This document shows, piece by piece, positions 12,184 to 14,853 of a stretch of DNA of 38,758 nt (position 1 is the first letter of the stretch; each line of letters opens with the position of its first letter). The position numbers were made by a program, and so were the translations under genes. Below the pieces are notes generated by a model. It was given only the letters and a program-made list of their open reading frames with translations. It was not told the origin of the DNA and did no database searches. The stretch is from Candidatus Eiseniibacteriota bacterium (GTDB lineage: Bacteria > Eisenbacteria > RBG-16-71-46): assembly GCA_016223045.1 (NCBI GenBank), contig JACRPT010000043.1, forward strand, positions 1 through 38,758. The letters are read 5' to 3'.

Positions 12184-12744
12184 TCACCGATAGAGCGCCT
12201 TGATCCGTCCCCAGGTCGTCGTTTGCGCGGGCGTCGCGGTCAGCTCGGTCGTGACGCCGGACTCGGACCCGCCGTCATTGATCGCATCGTAATTCTGCAC
12301 CCCCGGGACGGTCGGGCCCGTCCAGTCGAAGGTGACCGAGCAGGCCAGCACGCCGTTGGCCGGGATCTTGGCGCCCGCGACGGTGGTGCGGAAGCGGATC
12401 TTGTAGTTGAAGTTCGGCGCCACCGGGCCGAGCTTGGTGATGACCCAGTTGGCGGGCGCCGAGCCCGAGACGTAGTGGGCGTTGTCCACGTTGTCGGAGT
12501 TGAAATACACGGTCCAGGTATTGAGCGGGTTCGCCGACTTGTTGAGCGCCCGGTAGTCGTACCGCCACCGGTTGTTCGGCGGCACATTGCTCCCCGTGGG
12601 GAGCTGGCTGGTGGAGAGCACCGGCACGTCGCCGCCCGGTGCGAGGTAGTACAGCACGAAGTCGGCATCACTGAGCGTGCCCGCGGCCGCCGCTCCGGCC
12701 AGCATCAACAGCACCGCCGCCCACGCGAGTCGCATTGTCCTCAT
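12184..12744 (-). CDS. Secreted protein with C-terminal TWGRIKALYR tail
   Basis: The 186-residue protein has a signal peptide (MRTMRLAWAAVLLMLAGAAA, cleaved near AAAAG) and a beta-rich body. The body shares a domain with residues 30-165 of the neighbouring protein at 13006-14853. Corresponding segments are RYDYRALNKSANPLNTWTVY with NSD, YVSGSAPANWVI, and ACSVTFDWTGPTVPG; the neighbour has RFDYALTNTGEPLG, FFNSD, FVSSGAPAAWGDV and FSVTFDWNDPTTIPP. The last residues, TWGRIKALYR, match the tail of the secreted protein at 7291-8016. GGGAGAG lies about 6 nt before the ATG at 12744. A perfect 12-bp hairpin follows the gene. Its function is unknown; surface display or secretion is likely from the signal peptide. 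Confidence 0.75.
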   Translation of the reverse strand: MRTMRLAWAAVLLMLAGAAAAGTLSDADFVLYYLAPGGDVPVLSTSQLPTGSNVPPNNRWRYDYRALNKSANPLNTWTVYFNSDNVDNAHYVSGSAPANWVITKLGPVAPNFNYKIRFRTTVAGAKIPANGVLACSVTFDWTGPTVPGVQNYDAINDGGSESGVTTELTATPAQTTTWGRIKALYR

Positions 12745-12771
12745 TGGCTTCTCTCCCGTGCTCGTGATCTC

Positions 12772-12812
12772 GCCGCGCGCGCTCCCGCGGGGGGCAGGAG
12801 CACGCGCGCGGC
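12772..12812 (-). terminator. GC-rich hairpin between the two related secreted-protein genes
   Basis: GCCGCGCGCG (12772-12781) pairs with CGCGCGCGGC (12803-12812), and CTCC/GGAG extends the stem inwards past a 2-nt bulge. It lies 28 nt upstream of the start of the 186-residue protein gene and beyond the palindromic element, so it may end transcription from 14853 or form part of the next leader. Confidence 0.4.
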
Positions 12813-12826
12813 GAGCCTTCCTGTCG

Positions 12827-13009
12827 CTAGCCCGGACTATTCATGAGCCCGCCGCCTGCGAGCGCGATCTGCCCGGCATCGGCTGCGCAGTTCGGTCGGC
12901 CGCTTCCTCGACGTGTTGATAACACGACTCCGTCGCGGCCGACCGAACTGCTTGCCGCTGCCAGACATCTCGCACTCTCGGCTGGCGGTTCATGAATAGT
13001 CCGGGCTAG
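12827..13009. mobile_element. 183-bp nested palindrome, MITE-like, with CTAG ends
   Basis: The outer arms are perfect 20-bp inverted repeats (12827-12846 and 12990-13009) beginning CTAGCCCGGACTATTC. They continue imperfectly inwards (GCCGCC-rich). A second perfect pair of 17-bp arms, GCAGTTCGGTCGGCCGC (12887-12903) and its complement (12935-12951), lies inside, and a 6-bp hairpin (CGTGTT-GAT-AACACG) marks the centre. The element encodes nothing convincing. Size, terminal inverted repeats and CTAG at both ends fit a miniature inverted-repeat transposable element; CTAG could be a 4-bp target duplication of the kind some IS5-group elements make, though being palindromic it could also belong to the repeat. 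The right CTAG contains the TAG stop codon of the 14853-13006 gene. Confidence 0.75.
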
Positions 13010-14853
13010 TCCCAGGTCAGCTGGTGCGTGCCGGCGCCGAACCTGCCCTGCGCGACCCTGCGGACCACGCGACCGTTGATGTCGAAGACGTCCAGCGCCG
13101 CCTGTCCTGCGCGCGCCAGCGAGAACCCGAGCGTCACCACGCCGCCGCGCGACGGGTTCGGGTACGCGGGCATGAGCCGTAGCGCGGGGGTCTCGCCGCG
13201 AACATCGCCCAGGCGATAGGTGATGATGCGTGTCGAGACCGGCACCATGCCGCTGGGCACCTTCTCGCCTTCGTTGATGCGTTCCGCGATGGTCTTGGCG
13301 GTCTCGTCGTTCGACGTGATCCCGTCCTGGATCAGATCGTTGGCATAGGTGATCGCCTGCGACACCGTGGCCCCGTCGTTGCTGATGACCTCGGTCTGCG
13401 CGATCTTGGCCGAGACGACGTTCAGCAGCAGCGCCAGCAACTGCTGCTTCGCACGATCGAGCGCAGTGCCGCCGCGGTTGACCGTGAGCAGCTGCTGCAG
13501 CTTCCGCAGGCGGTCGCCGGGGATGTTGGATTCGGGCAGGTAGATCAGGACCGGGTTGACGATGTTCTGGTTGAAATGGACGAGCAGCAAGTCGGTGTAG
13601 CTCAGCATGTCGGCGAGCGACTCCTGCGTCTTGCCCTTGCCCTTGCCCGTGAGATGCGTGTTCACCTGGTGCTTCCAGTACCCGAGCGACCGCGGGTGGG
13701 ACTCGATGGCCTGGCAGCTCAGGTGGAACGTCGCGTCCACGGTCGCGCCGGCCGCGGTGACCTGCACCTGCCGGCTGCCGGCGTCCGCGATGTAGCCCAG
13801 CGGCGTGACGATGACGACGCGGTAGTCGCCGAGCGCCACGCCCGGGAAGCTGTACGCTCCGGACGCGTCGGTCGCAGTGACCGCGAGCAGCACGTCCTCG
13901 CCATCGGCGCCGACACCGAACAGGTCCACCGTCACGCCCTGGAGACCGGTCGTGGTCTCCGCGCACGTGCTGGCCCGGGCGTCGTCATCGTCACAATCGC
14001 CGTCGTCGTCGCAGTCGCCGTGACCTCCGCAGGTGCCGGTGACCAGCCCGTTGATGGTCCCGAGCAGGCACGTCATCGAGAAGTCGGCGGCGAGCACCTG
14101 GTCCACCTGCGTCAGCGAGACGACCTGGTTGTCCGCGACCGTGCCGTATCCCGGGGGCGGGACGATGACCACGGTGTACGTGCCGACCGGGATGCCCGGG
14201 AACGAGTAGCCCCCGCCCGCGTCGGTGTTGGCGCTGGCGAAGACCTGCGAGTCGTGCAGCAGCATGACGAGCACACCGCTCGCGGGCCCGCTCGGACCCC
14301 CGCACGATGCGGTGACGTGCCCGCCGACGGTGCCATTGAGATCAATGAGACCGACGACCTGCGTGAATCCGTCGTGCGCGGAGCCGTTGCTGGCCTGCGC
14401 GTGCTGGTACGGCGGGATGGTCGTCGGGTCGTTCCAGTCGAAGGTCACCGAGAAGCCCGGAAGTGACTCGCCGAGCAGGAGCGGTCCGGGCGGGCTCACG
14501 AAGTCGTAGTTCCACTCCAGGTACCACTGTCCGTTTGCGTTCTTCGGGAGCACGAAGACATCGCCCCAGGCGGCGGGAGCGCCCGAGGAGACGAACGTGG
14601 CCCTGTCGCCGGAGGGCAGCTGCGTCACCGGGTCGGAGTTGAAGAACACCCGGAACGCGGAGAGCCCGAGCGGCTCACCGGTGTTGGTGAGGGCGTAGTC
14701 GAAGCGGAAGCGCTGCTGTCCGCCCACCGCGCCGAGGTAGCTGAGGGTGCCGGTCGCGTCGAACGCCGTCGCACTGGCCTGCGTCGAGGGGAGCGCGAGG
14801 CAGGCGGCGACGGACACGAGGAAACGGGTGGCCAGGCGGAACGGATGGCGCAT
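13006..14853 (-). CDS. Multidomain surface protein with a truncated FlgD/type IX-like sorting domain
   Basis: The 615-residue protein has a signal peptide (residues 1-29) and GGAGG 9 nt before its ATG. Domains in order: a beta domain at 30-165 shared with the neighbour at 12184; two carboxypeptidase-regulatory/SdrD-B-like beta sandwiches at about 172-258 and 263-378, each with a 'GxYSFPGIPVGxYxVVI' strand; an acidic insert (CDDDGDCDDDD, 281-291) that may bind calcium; a mostly helical region at 380-545 opening with SLGYWKHQVNTHLTGKGKGK; and from 558 PAYPNPSRGGVVTLGFSLA, the start of a FlgD/Ig-like C-terminal sorting domain. That domain stops at GTHQLTWD, where relatives continue with about 30 more residues, so it is cut short. 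The stop is in the CTAG end of the palindromic element. Loss of the tail may leave the protein secreted to the periplasm but not attached. Confidence 0.8.
   Translation of the reverse strand: MRHPFRLATRFLVSVAACLALPSTQASATAFDATGTLSYLGAVGGQQRFRFDYALTNTGEPLGLSAFRVFFNSDPVTQLPSGDRATFVSSGAPAAWGDVFVLPKNANGQWYLEWNYDFVSPPGPLLLGESLPGFSVTFDWNDPTTIPPYQHAQASNGSAHDGFTQVVGLIDLNGTVGGHVTASCGGPSGPASGVLVMLLHDSQVFASANTDAGGGYSFPGIPVGTYTVVIVPPPGYGTVADNQVVSLTQVDQVLAADFSMTCLLGTINGLVTGTCGGHGDCDDDGDCDDDDARASTCAETTTGLQGVTVDLFGVGADGEDVLLAVTATDASGAYSFPGVALGDYRVVIVTPLGYIADAGSRQVQVTAAGATVDATFHLSCQAIESHPRSLGYWKHQVNTHLTGKGKGKTQESLADMLSYTDLLLVHFNQNIVNPVLIYLPESNIPGDRLRKLQQLLTVNRGGTALDRAKQQLLALLLNVVSAKIAQTEVISNDGATVSQAITYANDLIQDGITSNDETAKTIAERINEGEKVPSGMVPVSTRIITYRLGDVRGETPALRLMPAYPNPSRGGVVTLGFSLARAGQAALDVFDINGRVVRRVAQGRFGAGTHQLTWD

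Follow-up and report, generated by a model that had tools for sequence, protein, structure and literature searches.

In this study, we examined a palindrome within a 38,758-nucleotide stretch of a Candidatus Eiseniibacteriota genome (the window) and found that it is, very probably, a non-coding, 175-bp MITE mobilised in trans by a DDE transposase of the IS1380 family. As a class, MITEs are already known; what is new here is a hairpin core that occurs across phyla and between two kinds of ends. Re-examination of the sequence placed the palindrome at 12827-13009 (183 bp), exactly where a preliminary description had reported a nested palindrome with CTAG ends, and its DNA fold of -73.9 kcal/mol is far more stable than that of dinucleotide shuffles (-35.2, sd 3.2; z = -12, with 0 of 200 shuffles as stable). 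The outer 20-bp arms (12827-12846 and 12990-13009) are perfect, as described earlier, but they are not terminal repeats over their whole length: the outermost 4 bp of each, CTAG at 12827-12830 and 13006-13009, are a target duplication that is itself palindromic, so the true terminal inverted repeat is 16 bp long. The element proper thus spans 12831-13005 and is bounded by perfect copies of CCCGGACTATTCATGA at 12831-12846 (plus strand) and 12990-13005 (minus strand), the two occurrences of this 16-mer in the window at up to 3 mismatches, where 0.12 would be expected. Between them lies the conserved hairpin core (12849-12988, plus strand), which matches R2, a covariance model of 142 positions, with 117.9 bits (E = 3.8e-21) and contains, on the same strand, two perfect 17-bp inner arms (12887-12903 and 12935-12951) and an apical hairpin, CGTGTT-GAT-AACACG (12912-12926), within a conserved CTCGACG...ACG.CT motif. 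The structure is that of a MITE, which is defined by terminal inverted repeats, a length of 50-400 bp and a lack of coding capacity: the repeats are perfect, the length is 175 bp and the reading frames that cross the element are incidental. A search of the element against Rfam gave no family above its gathering score. Just outside the element, upstream of the start of the 12184-12744 reading frame, a separate perfect 13-bp inverted repeat, CTCGCCGCGCGCG, occupies 12769-12781 and 12803-12815 with a 21-bp loop.

The element belongs to a dispersed, multicopy family. Searching for the arms in the genome, as the preliminary description had proposed, returned 37 matches to CCCGGACTATTCATGA with at most 3 mismatches in the 3.88-Mb assembly (164 contigs), compared to 2 for a reversed control pattern. 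The element itself is present in about 14 copies, either full or cut off by a contig end, and in additional fragments, the near-full copies lying on contigs C3, C18, C19, C40, C58, C68 (two), C91, C127, C138, C146, C163 and C164 (two), those on C58 and C138 being incomplete; copies of 183, 184 and 204 bp, including target duplications, are among them. The 16-bp repeat is exact in many of these copies as well as in MITEs of several phyla. The exact 20-mer turns up in no fewer than 116 stretches from bacterial genomes, for the most part as an inverted pair with a spacing of 58-297 bp, and the matches listed include Planctomycetota, Nitrospira, Eisenbacteria, Acidobacteria, Thermoanaerobaculales, Rokubacteria, Myxococcota, Gammaproteobacteria and others. 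Copy number is erratic within the family of the window genome, where one genome (G006) has 238 arm matches and another of the same genus (G004) has 0. The perfection of the arms had been taken as a sign of recent activity; perfection alone is no proof of this, as all members of the family tend to be near-perfect palindromes. Recent spread is nevertheless suggested by the C138 copy, which is 100% identical over 141 bp, and by the wide range of arm matches (238 to 0) in a single related genus.

Several further occurrences of the arm were seen. The 238 matches of G006 all lie within a single 4.7-Mb MAG and have the look of a burst. Palindromes of 34 bp, in which two terminal repeats are fused end to end between CTAG flanks without a core, occur at L113:378-411 and L123:1957-1990 and in L172 and L175, and are minimal derivatives found in several genomes. 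In IMG/VR, the arm occurs once, at a contig end (L179:20-35; UViG 3300020198_001001), on what is possibly a bacterial contig or else a phage-borne copy. Copies seem often to lie at contig ends (e.g., L065, L083, L114, L126 and L160), and the palindrome seems to break short-read assemblies.

That CTAG is a target duplication is supported by a comparison of empty and occupied sites, in line with the duplication that had been predicted. We joined the flanks of 16 Nitrospira elements and searched for them in 29 Nitrospira genomes, which yielded several empty sites that carry a single 4-mer in place of the pair seen in the occupied allele. The 4-mer was CTAG for L102, L096 and one L082 comparison, TTAG for the L110 site, and TTAA for a second copy in L099, which ends in TTAA on both sides. 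Among 91 copies found by the core model, a set that is therefore unselected for CTAG, 40 are flanked by CTAG on both sides, and others carry matching TTAG/TTAG, TTAA/TTAA or CTAA/CTAA ends. The single 4-mer at empty sites, together with the matching 4-mers other than CTAG, indicates a 4-bp target duplication with a strong preference for CTAG. For the copy in the window, flanks joined in silico gave short FlgD-domain similarities and no orthologous site in 20 genomes of the family, so that its duplication is deduced from sister copies.

HUH elements produce no target duplication. The 4-bp duplication at the empty sites hence speaks against a reading of the palindrome as a REP-type element processed by a RAYT or IS200-IS605 HUH transposase, as do its length (175 bp rather than 20-40 bp) and terminal repeats of 16 bp identical to the ends of a DDE element of the IS1380 family. 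What the element does have in common with REP and REPtron elements, which comprise GTAG and CGTC repeats, is palindromy, high copy number and a tetranucleotide at the foot, the GTAG tag of REPs having its counterpart in the CTAG seen here (PMC3733652). Given that its ends are of the DDE type and unlike RAYT-processed hairpins, we find this alternative scarcely credible. The element also resembles bacterial MITEs, of which RUP, NEMIS and ERIC are listed examples (PMC3733652), in having a length within 70-300 bp, terminal repeats, no coding sequence and a presumed mobilisation in trans. It differs from them in that its hairpin covaries over its whole length, its motifs recur in several phyla and its core has a homologue between unrelated ends.

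The preliminary description had classed the element as a non-autonomous transposon without naming a transposase, and had proposed a search for complete insertion sequences that carry its ends; such elements exist. A full IS of 1.68 kb (L148:1547-3234) carries the same ends around a transposase that matches PF13701 (2.3e-128) and NF033539 (1.3e-108), and the IS1380 identity of the cognate transposase is set by NF033539 matches of 1.3e-108 and 5.1e-110, above the cut-off of that NCBIfam model. The same 16-20-bp ends with CTAG flanks are found on IS1380-family elements in L148, L218-L224, L420 and L424, one of which (L223) is an internally deleted IS copy of about 0.6 kb. In contrast to these IS, the window element is geneless and only 175 bp long, and its core has no counterpart in their interiors, as R2 has no match in L148 or L218-L224. 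When the L148 protein was searched in 40 MITE-bearing genomes, all seven matches had a recognisable end on one or both sides, with 1-4 mismatches to the 20-mer in six and 6 mismatches for the one of 39% identity. In the family of the window genome, G003 encodes an intact transposase ORF of 436 aa with the end CTAGCCCGACCTATTCATGA, and among 12 MITE arms listed from G003, 11 show this two-base variant as well, a correspondence between IS and MITE that lends indirect support to an IS1380 transposase acting on these ends. We consider the IS1380 (DDE) subfamily that carries the same ends to be the most likely mover, an identification based on the ends, and presume it to be active on the element. 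In the window genome itself, we saw a frameshifted C-terminal transposase remnant on C91 (∼70% identity over ∼100 aa) and no intact cognate transposase in an assembly whose 164 contigs may miss IS copies; the element may therefore be stranded in this genome, or an intact copy may have been lost in assembly gaps. A MITE need not be accompanied by an intact transposase of its own kind. Other IS1380 copies of this genome were considered as the mover and set aside, since two of the better-preserved ones have different ends (CCCGGATTTCGCARGGGTG) and the others have no usable repeats.

Taken together, the dispersed arms, the IS1380 elements with the same ends and the 4-bp duplication at sister sites bear out the classification as a non-autonomous transposon. 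In the mechanism that we propose, the IS1380 transposase would bind the 16-bp ends, excise the element and insert it, in a cut-and-paste fashion, at CTAG-like sites, where cuts staggered by 4 bp would lead to duplication of the site. Because CTAG sites frequently fall at stop codons, copies would often come to lie at the exact ends of genes, each gene keeping its TAG stop.

The copy in the window is such a case. The element abuts a 615-aa gene on the minus strand (13006-14853) with SdrD_B, CarboxypepD_reg and FlgD_ig domains, whose in-frame TAG stop codon is provided by the right CTAG and thus lies inside the target duplication. On the other side, a 186-aa reading frame without a Pfam match (12184-12744), also on the minus strand, starts 82 bp beyond the element. 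The C-terminal FlgD_ig domain of the 615-aa gene is incomplete (profile positions 19-55 of 79), and the match ends exactly at the element. Insertion at a pre-existing stop codon is the simplest reading, because the duplicated CTAG had to precede the insertion; given the incomplete domain, the gene may also have been truncated beforehand or shortened by a neighbouring deletion. In the first set of elements, 57 of 89 have an open reading frame of 100 or more codons that ends at the duplication on one or both sides; the figure for ordinary CTAG sites is 188 of 438 (Fisher p = 0.0003), and that for the core-model set is 53 of 91. The targeting of CTAG accounts for most of this placement at gene ends, and a modest enrichment comes on top of it.

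The element sits precisely in the gap that separates two genes of one strand, after the stop codon of 13006-14853 and ahead of the start of 12184-12744, and its hairpin is very stable. Both traits could also be expected of a structure with a fixed regulatory role, for instance a bidirectional terminator or an attenuator for the flanking gene pair. A single copy at a conserved position in relatives had been named as the observation that would point that way. We find the opposite, namely, a dispersed, multicopy element whose copy number differs between related genomes and for which 20 genomes of the family yielded no orthologous position; in addition, no T-run adjoins it. A fixed regulatory structure is accordingly very unlikely, while a secondary effect of the element on its flanking genes is possible.

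MITEs are usually seen as genome-specific leftovers with decaying interiors, a picture that does not fit the core described here. An alignment of 24 diverse copies shows common motifs and a single long hairpin in which 89% of the cells are paired. Compensatory changes affect 38 of 49 pairs across phyla. The compensated cells number 250, whereas shuffling of columns leaves 90.5 and sliding 41-68. In 95 distinct sequences, 33 of 34 pairs are compensated, in an alignment fitted to a covariance model; owing to such fitting, alignments A2 and A4 lean towards the model structures, whereas A1 was not fitted. The unpaired motifs are conserved as well, with CTGCTGCGA opposite CTCGCGACG, and CTCGACGT...ACGCCTGCG, and R2, which models the core without the ends, has matches in 32 of the 39 genomes searched with it.

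The R2 matches include elements with unrelated ends, CTAG-GAGTCTGTCCGAGTCAT, which either adjoin IS1380-type copies or stand apart from them. A sequence-only profile trained solely on cores with IS1380-type ends gave ten of these other-end copies 22.7-46.4 bits, compared to at most 5.3 bits for 1,000 shuffles that preserve the hairpin; scores so far above the shuffles show that the core is homologous across the two kinds of ends. The elements with the second kind of ends are Nitrospira IS1182-like MITEs, mostly 187-189 bp with flanks, that have the homologous core and a CTAG-type target in common with the window element and differ from it in their ends. Their ends resemble those of an IS1182 element in L148 (GAGTCTG ends, CTAG flanks, NF033551 at 1.2e-105), a resemblance that suggests a lead to their cognate transposase and no proof of it; in a scan of the collected loci for IS-size pairs with IS1182-like ends, L148 was the one hit.

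The covariation across phyla, the recurring unpaired motifs and the high scores of the core-only profile on copies with other ends raise the possibility that the core is a conserved functional module, either a structured RNA or a DNA hairpin or cruciform bound by a host factor, that has been captured by different transposon ends and benefits the host or the element. Such a module is compatible with a MITE, as it concerns the interior. Constraint at the RNA level would favour G-U over A-C, and we observe no excess of G-U in the model orientation, where A-C equals G-T at the coarsest clustering and is otherwise at least as frequent. The A-C excess, which amounts to G-U on the other strand, has p = 0.004 at fine clustering with one non-Watson-Crick pair left out and disappears at coarse clustering. 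The orientation of the core relative to abutting genes shows no clear bias (28 compared to 17, p = 0.14), and there are short derivatives of 26-70 bp that consist of ends only, which likewise speaks against such a module. Moreover, template-switch correction of palindromes could also create compensations, yet such correction would be expected to erase the conserved mismatched motifs. On balance, we regard a functional module as possible but rather doubtful. With similar reservation, we speculate that an ancient module, kept for a putative function of its own, may have been re-packaged between unrelated ends (IS1380-type, IS1182-like and perhaps a third) and, in this form, have reached several phyla as a structure that settles at the stop codons of genes.

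In the papers searched, we found neither the arm sequence nor a description of IS1380 or IS1182 elements with CTAG or of a MITE of theirs. The persistence of a covarying, motif-bearing hairpin in a geneless element over several phyla, and the occurrence of a homologous core between the ends of two different transposon types, make it a testable question whether the interior of a MITE is a spacer or a selected part with a role in transposition, replication or gene ends. In practical terms, the present work names a likely transposase and a CTAG target rule for a repeat often located at the ends of contigs in assemblies of environmental genomes.

Two minor observations concern the ends. In L148:1-3380, an IS1182-family element is situated between IS1380-type ends, with CTAG common to each boundary, and the two IS families apparently have a target in common. 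At L076:3380-3515 and L121:80-213, weaker matches to the core model apparently have other ends (CTAG-flanked GGCAGGATGCG... and GGCGGCT-AAAATGGCCG..., respectively), which are possibly a third and a fourth type around a related core.
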